A DNA stretch of 47,668 bases from Actinomycetota bacterium (GTDB lineage Bacteria; Actinomycetota; Acidimicrobiia; Acidimicrobiales; Ilumatobacteraceae), in contig WLJO01000016.1 in the NCBI GenBank assembly GCA_009701715.1, forward strand, positions 1-47,668. The letters run 5' to 3'. The position numbers were made by a program, and so were the translations under genes. The notes under the pieces are model-generated. The model saw only the letters and a list, made by a program, of their open reading frames with translations, had not been told where the DNA came from and searched no databases. This document shows, piece by piece, positions 20,767 through 44,930 of the stretch; position 1 is the first letter of the stretch, and each line of letters begins with the position of its first letter.

Positions 20767-21456
20767 GTGGGATCGCGGGGGCGAAGGATGCCCAGATGTT
20801 CTTCGGTCAGGGTGCTGACCTTGTCCGTTCTGGTTGTGGGTGCGGGAGGTCATGCGCGCGTGTGTCTCGAGATTCTCGAGGGCTCCGGCTGGGTGGTGTC
20901 GGGGTGTCTGAGCAGCGATGCCTCGGCGATACCGGGCCTTCCGGTCCCCGTCCTTGGGCTCGATTCCGAGCTCGAGGACCGGATCTCGGGGGGTGCAGCG
21001 GATGTGTTCGTGGCCATCGGCGACAACACCGTGCGCATGGAGATCGGTAGGCGCGTACTGGCGGCAGGTGGGCGACTTGTCACCGCCGTGAGCCCGCATG
21101 CAGTGGTCTCTGCATCAGCAGTGCTCGGAGCGGGTTCGGTGGTGATGCCCGGTGCCGTGATCAACGCAGGATCCGTGCTCGGCATGCTGGTTATCGTCAA
21201 CACCAACGCAACCGTCGATCACGACAGCCTGCTCGAGGACGGCACCCATGTTGCGCCGGGCGCATGTCTTGCGGGTGGGGTGCACGCTGGCGCAGGGACA
21301 CTCATCGGGATCGGCGCCAACGTGCTGCCGGGAACTCAAATTGGTGAGCGTTCAATTGTCGCCGCTGGGGCCGTTGTCACCGGGAACGTCGACGTGGGCG
21401 TTACCGTTGGGGGAGTGCCCGCCAGGGTGATCAGGTCGGGCACCGGCCCGCTCTGA
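20767..21456 (+). CDS. NeuD/PglD-like sugar acetyltransferase
   Basis: The product is 229 residues. An N-terminal Rossmann-like nucleotide-sugar domain has LVVGAGGHARVCLEIL. A left-handed beta-helix of hexapeptide repeats follows, with the catalytic His region ATVDHDSLLEDG. PglD N-acetylates the 4-amino group of UDP-4-amino-sugars. NeuD O-acetylates sialic acid. The adjacent dehydratase, aminotransferase and phosphoglycosyl transferase favour the PglD role. The start follows the -10 at 20752. Alternatives are ATG 20788 and TTG 20821, the last directly before the Rossmann strand. It is first of five tightly spaced plus-strand genes running to 24965. Confidence 0.85.
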   Translation: MGSRGRRMPRCSSVRVLTLSVLVVGAGGHARVCLEILEGSGWVVSGCLSSDASAIPGLPVPVLGLDSELEDRISGGAADVFVAIGDNTVRMEIGRRVLAAGGRLVTAVSPHAVVSASAVLGAGSVVMPGAVINAGSVLGMLVIVNTNATVDHDSLLEDGTHVAPGACLAGGVHAGAGTLIGIGANVLPGTQIGERSIVAAGAVVTGNVDVGVTVGGVPARVIRSGTGPL

Positions 21457-40793: not shown

Positions 40794-41471
40794 ATGATTC
40801 GACTTGAGAACGTCACCAAAATCTATGACGGCGACGTCACCGCTCTGCGGGACGCGTCATTTGACATCCCCAAGGGCGAGTTCATCTTCCTCGTCGGCCC
40901 ATCGGGCTCGGGTAAGAGCACGATCCTGCGACTACTCAACCGGCAGTACAAGCCCGAGCGCGGCGACGTCTGGGTCGCCGGCAAGAACATCAACCGGATG
41001 CGTGAGGGTGACGTTCCCCGACTGCGCCGTCAGATCGGCAACATCTTTCAGGACTACAAGCTGTTACTGAACAAGACGGTGTTCGAGAATGTGGCGTATG
41101 CCCTCGAGGTGATCGGTCAGCCCCGTCACGTCATCCGTCAGCAGGTGCCGCAGGTGCTCGATCTCGTTGGCCTCGCCGGCAAGGAGGACCGTTTCCCGAA
41201 TCAGCTGTCCGGTGGCGAGCAGCAGCGGGTCTCGGTTGCCCGGGCGTTCGTCAACCGGCCCTTGATCCTGCTTGCGGACGAGCCCACTGGAAACCTCGAC
41301 CCGGCAACCGGTGAGGGGATCATGAAACTGCTCGAGGCCATTAACAAGACCGGAACCACGATTGTGATGGCCACTCACGACCAGGTGATTGTGAACTCGA
41401 TGCGCAAGCGCGTCGTTCAGCTGGACCGTGGCGTGATCGTCCGCGACCAAACTCGCGGGGTGTACGAGTAA
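40794..41471 (+). CDS. ftsE: Cell division ATP-binding protein FtsE
   Basis: The product is 225 residues. The ABC ATPase has Walker [10 protein letters not shown] at 35-43, the Q-loop stretch [11 protein letters not shown], signature [14 protein letters not shown], Walker [15 protein letters not shown] and the switch His in ATHD. The family consensus of FtsE ([11 protein letters not shown], and [14 protein letters not shown]) is clear. With FtsX it forms a complex that activates periplasmic or extracellular peptidoglycan hydrolases during division. The stop overlaps the ftsX start by one base (TAATG), so translation is coupled. Confidence 0.96.
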
Positions 41472-42428: not shown

Positions 42429-43292
42429 GTGGACTACACCCAGATTCGATACGAAGTGGCCGATGGTATTGCAACCATCACCCTGAACCGGCCCGACCAG
42501 CTCAACGCCTTCACGAGCACGATGATGAATGAAATCATCGATGCCTTTGACCACACGGACGCCGATGATGACGTGCGCGTCGTCGTCATGACCGGTTCGG
42601 GCCGGGGCTTTTGCGCCGGCGCGGACCTCTCGAGCGGGGGTGCCACCTTCGCCAAGGGGGGTAGCGACGTCAAGACCAAGGTGGAGGGTGTGACCCGCGA
42701 TGGCGGTGGGCTTGCCTCGCTGCGGATCTACGAGAGTCACAAGCCGGTGATCGGCGCGATTAACGGAGCCGCGGTCGGTGTTGGTGTCACGATGACGCTC
42801 CCGATGGACTTCCGTCTCGCCAGCACCACTGCCAGGTTCGGCTTCGTGTTCGCCCGTCGTGGCATCGTGCCCGAGGCCTGCTCGTCGTGGTTCCTGCCCC
42901 GCATCGTGGGCATCTCCAAGGCAACCGAGTGGGTGTACACGGGAAGGATCTTCTCGGCGCAGGAGGCACTCGAGGGCGGTCTCGTCCGCAGTGTCCACGA
43001 GCCTGACGATCTACTCGCCGCGGCCTACGTGCTCGCACGGGAGATCGCCGACAACACGGCACCCGTATCGGTGTCGCTCGCCCGTCACATGCTCTGGCGC
43101 GGCCTGAGCCTGGATCACCCCATGGAGGCTCACAAGATGGATTCACGCGGGATCGCCGTTCGCGGACCCAGCGCCGACGCCATCGAGGGCGTGACCTCCT
43201 TCCTCGAGAAGCGGCCTGCCCGCTTCCCGGACCGCGTGAGCGACGGCCTGCCAGACATCTTCCCCGGGTGGACCGAGCGCGAGTTCTCCTGA
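42429..43292 (+). CDS. Enoyl-CoA hydratase/isomerase family protein
   Basis: The product is 287 residues, a crotonase fold. TITLNRPDQLNAF at the start and the oxyanion-hole motif GRGFCAGADLSSG are clear, as is GAAVGVGVTMTLPMDFRLAS. In the usual alignment the first catalytic Glu (PEI-LG in mitochondrial hydratase) falls at VFA in GFVFARRGIVPEA and is not Glu, while the second Glu is kept in ATEWVYTG. VPEACSSW is characteristic of a subgroup. It is probably an acyl-CoA hydratase or isomerase with altered chemistry. The substrate is unknown. The C-terminus with HKMDSRGI is long. Confidence 0.85.
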   Translation: MDYTQIRYEVADGIATITLNRPDQLNAFTSTMMNEIIDAFDHTDADDDVRVVVMTGSGRGFCAGADLSSGGATFAKGGSDVKTKVEGVTRDGGGLASLRIYESHKPVIGAINGAAVGVGVTMTLPMDFRLASTTARFGFVFARRGIVPEACSSWFLPRIVGISKATEWVYTGRIFSAQEALEGGLVRSVHEPDDLLAAAYVLAREIADNTAPVSVSLARHMLWRGLSLDHPMEAHKMDSRGIAVRGPSADAIEGVTSFLEKRPARFPDRVSDGLPDIFPGWTEREFS

Positions 43293-43310
43293 CCGGGACC
43301 AAGGTCCCGG
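43293..43310 (+). terminator. Hairpin directly after the crotonase stop
   Basis: CCGGGACC (43293-43300), AA, GGTCCCGG (43303-43310) is a perfect inverted repeat. A 2-nt loop is tight, so the innermost pair may open. There is no T tract. Confidence 0.45.
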
Positions 43311-43378
43311 AACTCTGATGACGATCGGTCCGATACAGGTCACGTTGTCCAGGTTGTGACGTATGAGACAGCGAAATC

Positions 43379-43405
43379 GGGAACACAGCGTGGCCCATTT
43401 CCGTT
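43379..43405 (+). promoter_or_regulatory. ECF sigma-type promoter, GGGAAC-N18-GTT
   Basis: GGGAAC at 43379-43384, 18 nt, GTT at 43403-43405 (read as C-GTT). This matches the known SigR/SigH-class pattern, GGGAAT/C with N18 and GTT, and ECF promoters in general (GGAAC and CGTT). Transcription would start near 43411, giving a leader of about 55 nt before ATG 43467. No TANNNT element fits this gene. Confidence 0.55.
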
Positions 43406-43450
43406 AAACCTTCCAGATCGAAACAATCGGAGAGACCGGTTGAACCCCTG

Positions 43451-43458
43451 AAGGAGGG
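43451..43458 (+). promoter_or_regulatory. Strong ribosome binding site AAGGAGGG
   Basis: It lies 8 nt before ATG 43467 and is the best Shine-Dalgarno match in the window. Confidence 0.8.
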
Positions 43459-43466
43459 ACACTCAC

Positions 43467-43670
43467 ATGAGCATTTTGTTGAGTGACAGAATTGAGACGG
43501 GCAACGTTCTCGAGGTTCGCATTGACGGCGAATGGGTCTCGGCACTCGTTCTCCTCGCAAGTGACGAAGCAGTAATCCTCGACCTGTGCGACGGCTCCAC
43601 CCCCGTGGTCCTGCAGGCCGAGGAACTCCAGGACTACCGCCTCTTCGTGGCGGACCCCACCTGGATCTGA
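43467..43670 (+). CDS. Small acidic protein of unknown function, 67 residues
   Basis: The product begins MSILLSDRIETGNVLEVRI and ends QDYRLFVADPTWI. It alternates short beta-type strands (VLEVRIDGEWVSALVLL, AVILDL, PVVLQA) with turns and carries one Cys (DLCDG). I predict a small soluble beta-barrel with no signal or membrane segment. I do not recognise the family. An ECF-type promoter and the strongest ribosome site in the window precede it, and a hairpin follows, so it is probably a single-gene unit expressed strongly under stress. The next gene, a truncated haemoglobin, has its own -10. Confidence 0.75.
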   Translation: MSILLSDRIETGNVLEVRIDGEWVSALVLLASDEAVILDLCDGSTPVVLQAEELQDYRLFVADPTWI

Positions 43671-43685
43671 CATTGCCGGTTCTTG

Positions 43686-43704
43686 TGGAGCGCCCCCCGC
43701 TCCA
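43686..43704 (+). terminator. Hairpin after the 67-residue gene
   Basis: TGGAGCG (43686-43692), CCCCC, CGCTCCA (43698-43704) form a perfect 7-bp stem with a 5-nt loop. It directly abuts the -10 element of the haemoglobin gene at 43705. There is no T tract. Confidence 0.5.
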
Positions 43705-43710
43705 TAAGAT
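43705..43710 (+). promoter_or_regulatory. -10 element TAAGAT for the haemoglobin gene
   Basis: It ends 7 nt before ATG 43718. Confidence 0.5.
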
Positions 43711-43717
43711 CTGACAC

Positions 43718-44137
43718 ATGGCCACCGACGGCGAAGAGGTTGAGCTAACACTCTTCGAAGCAGCCGGTGGCATTGTGTTTTTTGAGGGCCTGGTGGAGAT
43801 CTTCTACCGAGAGGTGCAGGCAGACCCGGTGCTCGTGGTGCTGTACCCAGAGGCTGATCTCGGCCCGGCGAAGCACCGCCTCGCCACCTTCCTCGCCCAG
43901 TATTGGGGTGGTCCGATGACCTACGCCGAGGAGCGGGGGAACCCAGCGCTCAAGATGCGCCACTTCCCGTACGCAATCGGTCCGGAACAGCGCGACCGAT
44001 GGCTCGCTGCTATGGGCATCGCGATCGACGAGATGGACCCGGTCCCGGACGTGAGGCGCATGTTGACGGAGTACTTCGTCATGGCGGCGGAACACCTGCG
44101 CAACGACCAGTCGATGCGCTTCACCGGATCCGCATGA
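43718..44137 (+). CDS. glbO: Group II truncated haemoglobin (trHbO type)
   Basis: The product is 139 residues. The two-on-two globin fold is marked by Tyr30 (B10), the loop QYWGGP with Tyr62 (CD1), the proximal His82 (F8) in KMRHFPY, and Trp95 (G8) in QRDRWLAAM. Trp G8 together with Tyr at CD1 is the group II pattern. Such proteins bind O2 and may handle NO, peroxide or electron transfer. The start is leaderless-like. The 3' end overlaps the convergent methyltransferase gene by 17 bp. Confidence 0.92.
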   Translation: MATDGEEVELTLFEAAGGIVFFEGLVEIFYREVQADPVLVVLYPEADLGPAKHRLATFLAQYWGGPMTYAEERGNPALKMRHFPYAIGPEQRDRWLAAMGIAIDEMDPVPDVRRMLTEYFVMAAEHLRNDQSMRFTGSA

Positions 44138-44930
44138 GGGCGTAGCACGCCACAGCGGCCGCAGAGCCCACGTTCAACGAATCGACCTCGGTGTGCATCG
44201 GGATTCGAGCGCGGACGTCTGCAGCGGCCATGGTCGGCTCCTTGATGCCGTGACCCTCGGCGCCAAGCACGAGCGCGATCCGGTCGTGGGGAGCAATGTC
44301 GGCGATGTCGATTGCGTCCGGTGCGGGGGTGAGCGCAACGATCACGAAGCCGGCGTCCCGGAGTGGGGCAAGTCCGTCGGGCAGCGGCGCTGTGCGTGCA
44401 TAGGGGAAGCGATAGACCTCGCCCATCGCCACGCGTGACGCGCGCCGGTACAGCGGGTCCGCGCACTGCGGGTCGAGGAGGAGCGCATCAACGCCCAGCG
44501 CGGCGGCGCTGCGCACGATGACCCCGACATTTGTCGGGTTGTTCACGCCCTCGGCAACGACGACACGTCGTGCCGTAGCGATTACGTCCTCCAGAGTGCG
44601 GAGCGGCTTGCGCTCGAAACATGCGAGCATCCCGCGGTGGACGCCCATGCCGGTGATCCGTTCAATCACCCTCACCCCTGCCGCGTACACGGGTGGGTCC
44701 GTCGGGATTGCCTCCGGGAGCGGTTGCTCACGCTGGGCATCGACGAGACAGTGCAGCATCCGGTAGCCAGCACGGATCGCGCGTTCGACCACGATGTCGC
44801 CCTCCGCAATGAAGAGCCCGCTGATGTCACCACCGGGGGACTCACGCTGCTGGCGGAGCGCGTGGTCGCGCAGGCCGAGGTACACGTTCAGACGGGCGTC
44901 GTCCGGTTGCTCGACGGGAATCCAGGCCAT
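44121..44930 (-). CDS. SpoU/TrmH family RNA 2'-O-methyltransferase
   Basis: The product is 269 residues. An N-terminal substrate-binding domain (to about 100) precedes the SPOUT methyltransferase with its three motifs: NPTNVGVIVR-AAALG, LVLGAEGHG, and the knot motif IPMHTEVDSLNVGSAAAVACYA. It methylates ribose in tRNA or rRNA using SAM. Target not predictable. ATG 44930 gives MAWIPVEQ. ATG 44939 would add MIH. A near-consensus CAGAAT precedes these starts. The frame continues to 45698 on this strand but is antisense to the M50 gene. Confidence 0.9.
   Translation of the reverse strand: MAWIPVEQPDDARLNVYLGLRDHALRQQRESPGGDISGLFIAEGDIVVERAIRAGYRMLHCLVDAQREQPLPEAIPTDPPVYAAGVRVIERITGMGVHRGMLACFERKPLRTLEDVIATARRVVVAEGVNNPTNVGVIVRSAAALGVDALLLDPQCADPLYRRASRVAMGEVYRFPYARTAPLPDGLAPLRDAGFVIVALTPAPDAIDIADIAPHDRIALVLGAEGHGIKEPTMAAADVRARIPMHTEVDSLNVGSAAAVACYALMRIR

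Follow-up and report, generated by a model that had tools for sequence, protein, structure and literature searches.

Gene content of the locus

The analysed window (the whole stretch of DNA, 47,668 nucleotides, contig 8 of a 2.8-Mb draft genome) contains an open reading frame (ORF) of 67 amino acids, with an enoyl-CoA hydratase gene upstream and a globin gene downstream. The features of the locus, all on the forward (+) strand, are as follows:

43293-43310, +: hairpin after the enoyl-CoA hydratase gene and before the promoter (-14.7 kcal/mol, z -2.0)
43355-43370, +: putative CRP-type operator remnant, a TGTGA half-site, N6 and a degenerate AGACA; its GTG lies 24 nt before GGAAC
43379-43384, +: -35 box GGGAAC of a predicted ECF (SigR/SigH-type) promoter, from the pattern match and orthologue conservation
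43403-43405, +: -10 box GTT within CCGTTAAACC, separated from the -35 box by 18 nt; both genus relatives have GCGTTA here
43410-43466, +: predicted 5' leader with a possible hairpin at 43424-43442, its fold compared with shuffles
43451-43458, +: Shine-Dalgarno sequence AAGGAGGG, 8 nt before the ATG
43467-43670, +: 67-aa ORF with ATG start; product acidic, predicted SH3-like small beta barrel
43681-43709, +: 12-bp hairpin downstream of the 67-aa gene and before the globin gene, with stem arms 43681-43692 and 43698-43709 (-22.7 kcal/mol, z -5.9)
43718-44137, +: bacterial-type (truncated) globin (PF01152, E 1.2e-24), probably leaderless with its own -10 box

As judged from matches in 51 of the 221 genomes of its family, distributed over 14 of 27 genera, the 67-aa ORF is a real gene. 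The orthologue set used for the comparisons comprised 50 sequences of 13 genera from the 51 genomes with a match. Loci L009 and L010, which are the same contigs as those of the L008 and L007 genomes, were left out of the counts, as were the non-homologue L002 and the weak matches in G347 (E 0.008) and at a second place in G419 (E 0.003). Sampling of 298 genomes of the order, 395 of the class and 396 of the phylum gave no clear homologue beyond the family; one class-level match (E 0.006) was obtained. Among the samples searched, the protein appears so far to be confined to one actinobacterial family. The search for a paralogue in the own genome returned a chance match alone (E 1.2).

Conservation of the ECF-type promoter

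The sequence-only reading had proposed that the gene is preceded by an ECF-type promoter, and GGGAAC-N18-GTT is indeed located at 43379-43405, about 55 nt before the ORF. The pattern alone is indecisive because it has three exact matches in the window (0.24 expected from shuffles), the others being located inside a long opposite-strand ORF (40992-41018) and 78 nt before an LMW-phosphatase-like ORF (21382-21408); the matter is settled by the orthologues. In all three genomes of the genus GGAAC-N18-GTTA is kept, together with GAAATC immediately 5' of the -35 box, and the conserved footprint comprises TGTGAC, GAAATC-n-GGAACA and CGTTA/GTTA-n-ACC. In the promoter spacers 5-8 of 18 bases are identical. 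The expected behaviour, boxes and spacing retained while the spacer drifts, is therefore visible in 3/3 genus genomes, except for the first G of GGGAAC, which is lost in L007.

When the 130-nt upstream regions of the 50 orthologues were scanned, GGAAY-N17-19-GTT was present in 28 of them. The counts were 15, 9 and 4 for spacers of 17, 18 and 19 nt, 2 for 20 and 1 for 14, and none of the 50 regions had the pair at the remaining spacings within 10-29 nt, or on the reverse strand with N17-19; dinucleotide shuffles yield it in 1.1%. The pair is missing in 22/50 orthologues, and the poorest genera are g4 (0/9), g188 (1/5) and g189 (3/9). Orthologues without the boxes, which the sequence-only reading had named as evidence against itself, are thus absent from the genus (3/3 keep them) but make up 22 of the 50 sequences overall.

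Identity of the sigma factor

Actinobacterial sigma factors of the SigR/SigH type are freed from a zinc anti-sigma upon thiol oxidation. The promoters of the thiol-stress regulons of SigR/RsrA (Streptomyces) and SigH/RshA (Corynebacterium, Mycobacterium) have the form GGAAT/C-N18-19-GTT, trxA and clpB are SigR targets in other bacteria, and the HxxxCxxC motif is the mark of RsrA. The window's promoter shares the box letters and the 18-nt spacing with these systems. In its own genome GGGAAY-N18-GTT occurs at 39 sites, compared with 7 for the reversed pattern, and many of the 30 sites inspected lie inside reading frames. One ECF site is located 44 nt before the thioredoxin gene trxA (TIGR01068) and another before clpB (TIGR03346), at a distance of 22 or 43 nt depending on the start codon; both carry GGAAT. 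In the gene-bearing genomes the ECF pair precedes trxA at 27 of the 30 loci inspected, with N18 in 26 of these.

A SigH_actino match with E <= 1e-30 was obtained in 48/50 genomes, above the curated cut-off in 5/50. The sigma factor of the own genome (G000:C27; TIGR02947, E 1.6e-71) scores 239.6 bits, slightly below the cut-off of 251.55, and an HxxxCxxC protein adjoins it. Such a protein follows the sigma gene at 27/30 loci, the remaining three being incomplete or off-target in the scan. The trxA/clpB sites and the SigH-like sigma beside an HxxxCxxC protein are further features shared with the SigR/RsrA and SigH/RshA systems. The locus differs from them in that the fifth -35 base is C in the window rather than the more usual T, in the interleaved WhiG-type boxes and CRP-type operator added in the relatives, and in a target product without a named family. 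Upstream of the sigma gene itself the ECF pair was found at 1/30 loci, that of the own genome (L192 and L194 were scanned off-target).

In C. glutamicum (PMC10012870) the SigH core consensus is GGAAt-N18-19-GTT, while promoters of the form GGAAC-N17-18-cGTT are recognised by SigH as well as SigE; in Corynebacterium SigE requires GGAAC, and SigH tolerates GGAAN. The earlier statement that the promoter fits the SigR/SigH class exactly holds for boxes and spacing, but it is too firm as an assignment, because GGAAC with cGTT belongs, in Corynebacterium, to the dual SigH/SigE class (PMC10012870). For the same reason SigR-type control of the 67-aa gene can be described as likely, not certain. Another ECF sigma, SigE-like and related to envelope stress, might read the promoter in place of SigR; the gene would then be tied to surface stress, and the GGAAT sites of trxA and clpB would represent a separate regulon. 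The combination of GGAAC and cGTT in the window speaks for such a factor, given the SigE requirement for GGAAC in Corynebacterium, as does GGAAC at the gene in both genus relatives, compared with GGAAT at trxA and clpB of the own genome. Outside the genus, however, 17 of the 21 loci whose pair has a spacer of N17-18 carry GGAAT, which fits SigR, and the SigH-like match is nearly general. SigE-type control is therefore considered rather unlikely, and a SigR/SigH-type factor is preferred.

Near-identical GGGAAC-N18-GTT stretches were also noticed near contig ends (G000:C21:144-170; G000:C59:70-96 and 244-270), at least one of them within an open frame.

Leader, flanking hairpins and neighbouring genes

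If transcription starts 5-9 nt after the GTT, the leader would be 53-57 nt long. Its fold in the window is no better than that of shuffles (z -0.37), and the leader folds of the 50 orthologues have a mean z of -1.1, compared with -0.4 to +0.3 in five shifted windows. These values point weakly to a leader hairpin. The ribosome site had been called the best one, and AAGGAGGG is the sole AAGGAGG-N5-9-ATG occurrence in the window (0.18 expected); part of it is able to pair in a weak 4-bp helix.

Both flanking hairpins described in the sequence-only reading are present, the 3' one being longer than claimed (43681-43709 instead of 43686-43704). Its right arm overlaps the TAAGAT (43705-43710) located 7 nt before the globin ATG. 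The contrast with leaderless neighbours, also drawn earlier, is thus correct for the globin gene, and the haemoglobin gene reported next door corresponds to the globin listed above. By eye, L007 has a near copy of the 43681-43710 hairpin and L008 an altered, perhaps still pairing form. Intrinsic terminators at both hairpins were considered and rejected, since a scan of 42600-44600 gave no terminator-like site. The comparison of 43200-43800 with Rfam gave one sub-threshold chance match.

The globin gene lies 3' of the gene on the same strand in 47/50 loci. This constancy may suggest that the 67-aa protein is a small haemoglobin partner, regulated jointly with the truncated globin for NO or redox stress. 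However, the hydratase gene is found 5' (within 1.5 kb) in 45/50 loci and is nearly as constant, therefore the gene block may merely be stable. Moreover, by eye and without a count, the globin gene in many loci appears to have its own leaderless -10 box. A functional partnership with the globin is unlikely.

WhiG-type promoter in the relatives

The pattern T[CA]AAG-N16-CCGA[AT] was found in 25/50 upstream regions, in 0/50 at all other spacers from 9 to 24 nt and in none on the reverse strand. With one further site that overlaps an annotated start, these strict WhiG-type boxes are present in 26 of the 43 genomes whose FliA/WhiG match is strong (E < 1e-60) and in 0/7 without such a match, and the other 17 of the 43 lack them. 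When one mismatch was allowed in either box, the numbers were 33/43 and 1/7 (shuffles 3.8%), with a Fisher p of 0.003 that is optimistic, because the seven genomes are drafts representing five lineages and the rows are non-independent. The single retained one-mismatch site belongs to G493. In the window no WhiG-type site with at least 4/5 letters per box and spacers of 15-17 nt was found within 130 nt of the gene, and no strong FliA/WhiG gene was detected in the three drafts of its genus (97, 85 and 81% complete).

Genome-wide, CTCAAG-N16-CCGAT occurs at 4-21 sites in each of 12 genomes, compared with 0-2 for the reversed pattern (G134, 21 vs 0; G006, 18 vs 1; window genome, 4 vs 0). Altogether 166 sites were counted, and 47 sites other than those of the 67-aa gene, 2 of them from the own genome, were inspected. 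In PMC8325347 the flagellar/WhiG consensus is given as TAAA / GCCGATAA, and the WhiG regulon of Rubrobacter includes type IV pili and c-di-GMP enzymes. The CCGAT core is common to this sigma28-clade regulon and the relatives' boxes. The 20 proteins encoded behind CTCAAG-N16-CCGAT sites in five relatives include 2 GGDEF, 1 pilin-like, 2 HAMP and 1 Roadblock proteins, the remainder belonging to other or no families, so that GGDEF and pilin-like genes also stand behind some of the relatives' sites. In comparison with that regulon (PMC8325347), the -35 box here is CTCAAG or TAAAG, the spacer before CCGA is strictly 16 nt, and the boxes are missing from the window's genus.

The sigma gene of G134 has WhiG as its best NCBIfam match (PRK06288, 288 bits, below the cut-off), with TIGR02479 above the cut-off, and it is located near rrf, tsf and a Mg-chelatase (ComM-like) gene. 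Because of this neighbourhood and best match, both from G134, WhiG and not the flagellar FliA is meant here. The possibility that the CCGAT boxes are flagellar promoters was rejected, as flagellin-type genes occur in just 11 of the 50 gene-bearing genomes and two weak sigma28-type matches were found before the 23 flagellin-type genes scanned. Several flagellin loci of the relatives (L084-L095) share other upstream letters, and another factor may drive them.

In 13 orthologues (genera g2, g5, g186 and g187) the ECF and WhiG-type promoters are interleaved in the order GGAAY, 2-3 nt, CTCAAG box, 8 nt, GGTT or a near form, 4 nt, CCGAT. At the 47 other CTCAAG-N16-CCGAT sites GGAAY was never found at the matching place and GTT was nearby in 2, therefore the ECF letters are particular to the 67-aa gene. 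GGAAY-N18-GTT is present in 5/7 genomes that lack a strong FliA/WhiG gene, compared with 4/43 that have one. The gene of the relatives could nevertheless belong mainly to the WhiG (pilus/c-di-GMP) regulon, with GGAAY...GTT as an extended part of the WhiG promoter or a site of some other factor. The near-fixed distances between the interleaved boxes would agree with such a composite element, and the GGDEF, pilin-like, HAMP and Roadblock products resemble the Rubrobacter regulon (PMC8325347). The particularity of the ECF letters argues against it, and because 5/7 FliA/WhiG-less genomes keep GGAAY-N18-GTT, the two sets of boxes separate in both directions. This explanation is improbable, and two distinct promoters are preferred.

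In the relatives with interleaved promoters the ECF spacing is mostly 17 nt, whereas it is 18 nt at trxA; therefore the ECF sites of these promoters may be weak SigR sites or sites of another ECF sigma. The distribution of spacings suggests that 17 nt is a compromise in the woven promoters, with the standard 18 nt where WhiG has gone.

Putative CRP-type operator

Operators of the CRP/GlxR type have the form TGTGA-N6-TCACA. The matching GTG-N8-CAC palindrome, which we take to be the CRP-type operator form, was found in 26/50 upstream regions of 170 nt (shuffles 5.6%), the window being among the 24 without it. Nine other spacings between 4 and 13 nt gave 1-11 regions, and the 11 regions with GTG-N10-CAC may partly be GTGTG...CACAC forms of the same site. 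Of the 20 loci with both the palindrome and the ECF pair, 18 have the GTG 23-25 nt before GGAAY, and in the other two the distance is 34 or 36 nt, longer by roughly one helical turn. By arithmetic the centre of the palindrome would be near -50 from the ECF start and near -60 from the WhiG start. From the form of the palindrome we infer a CRP-family site. In contrast to a full operator, the window's genus keeps just a half-site: TGTGAC is invariant in 3/3 genomes, at a distance of 23-24 nt upstream of GGAAC, the second half is worn, and in the window TGTGA was the sole part of a TGTGA-N6-TCACA-like palindrome found.

The description of the locus as an isolated stress gene is thus only partly retained. 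The ECF promoter agrees with it, but more than an isolated stress gene is indicated, because 22/50 orthologues are without the ECF pair, many of these with a sigma28/WhiG-type promoter instead, and because of the CRP-type operator.

The 67-aa protein

The product had been described as not assignable to a family, and no Pfam or NCBIfam family was found for the window's protein, with nothing in Pfam up to E 10. AlphaFold, run on the 50 sequences, predicts a five-strand barrel (pLDDT 86, pTM 0.72), which is taken here to be an SH3-like small barrel. Structural comparison gave no Foldseek match at E <= 0.001 (best E 0.014, TM 0.60), the top rows being mostly Spt5 KOW, Tudor, Hfq and designed small barrels, and VIA Z scores up to 7.6 over mixed folds; unrelated small-barrel proteins score alike. 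Named folds missing from the structure lists were given no weight as evidence. Residues G12, V14, E16, V28, L29, L30, D39, P46 and R58 are invariant in the 50 members, and Cys41 is present in 49/50. Acidity is common to all 50, with net charges from -3 to -13 (mean -8.4) and pI values of at most 4.49 (4.05 for the window's protein). The predicted five-strand barrel is shared with DUF2187 (PF09953) and other SH3-like small barrels such as CooT and KOW, and DUF2187 gives weak profile matches in 11/50 members (best E 7e-4). In contrast to these barrels the family is strongly acidic and has conserved Gly12, Glu16, Asp39, Cys41, Pro46 and Arg58, and the window copy is unmatched by DUF2187.

A KOW/Hfq-like nucleic-acid-binding barrel acting on RNA or RNA polymerase, to which the top Foldseek rows and the DUF2187 matches might point, is doubtful, as Foldseek scores of this level are shared by unrelated small barrels and direct nucleic-acid binding is disfavoured by the acidity of all 50 members. 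At low confidence, and as a guess, the protein may be a protein-binding adaptor, perhaps redox-sensing via its conserved cysteine.

Proposed regulation of the gene

Taken as a whole, the locus is best explained, with a probability of roughly 0.68, as a SigR/SigH-type ECF unit whose orthologues have up to three inputs and whose product is an adaptor protein. The window would contain a self-contained transcription unit for the 67-aa acidic SH3-like small barrel protein, with its promoter read by RNA polymerase carrying a SigR/SigH-type ECF sigma. Its mRNA would carry some 55 nt of leader and a strong ribosome site, in contrast to that of the globin gene, which would be leaderless. The control regions of the orthologues would receive up to three inputs, namely the ECF boxes, a WhiG promoter of the sigma28 type, either woven into these boxes or standing in their place, and a CRP-type activator site with its start some 24 nt ahead of the ECF -35 element. 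In the window's genus, where neither a strong FliA/WhiG gene nor WhiG boxes were found, the 18-nt ECF promoter and the operator half-site would be left. Comparison of the genomes shows the elements themselves, their spacings and their co-occurrence with sigma genes. Which sigma reads the promoter, its induction and the action of the protein are inferred; the protein would most likely be a small adaptor that binds other proteins and could signal the redox state through its conserved cysteine. A stress- and lifestyle-induced adaptor is the best reading, in which the protein function is a guess.

A more specific evolutionary scenario is possible, at somewhat less than even odds. SigR-type and WhiG boxes would be woven into 35-40 bases and share one CRP-type site, so that the acidic barrel protein with its conserved cysteine would answer to thiol stress, to the c-di-GMP/WhiG lifestyle switch and to one more signal, and the WhiG-less lineages would have lost the WhiG boxes and returned the SigR spacer to 18 nt. 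If true, this would be a natural experiment in promoter rewiring. In the literature on overlapping ECF/WhiG/Crp promoters and on Acidimicrobiia/Ilumatobacter regulons, no such promoter or protein was present among the matches listed from a partial library. The locus would join the thiol-stress and WhiG regulons at one promoter in a deep actinobacterial lineage and supply natural gains and losses for the study of overlapping-promoter evolution. Moreover, it would add an uncharacterised protein family to the likely stress and lifestyle effectors.

As a minor observation on the CTCAAG-N16-CCGAT sites of other genes, the start codon lies 8-9 nt past CCGAT at 18 of the 47 distinct sites (L149-L178, L242-L257), and much of the WhiG-type regulon in the relatives may consist of leaderless mRNAs.
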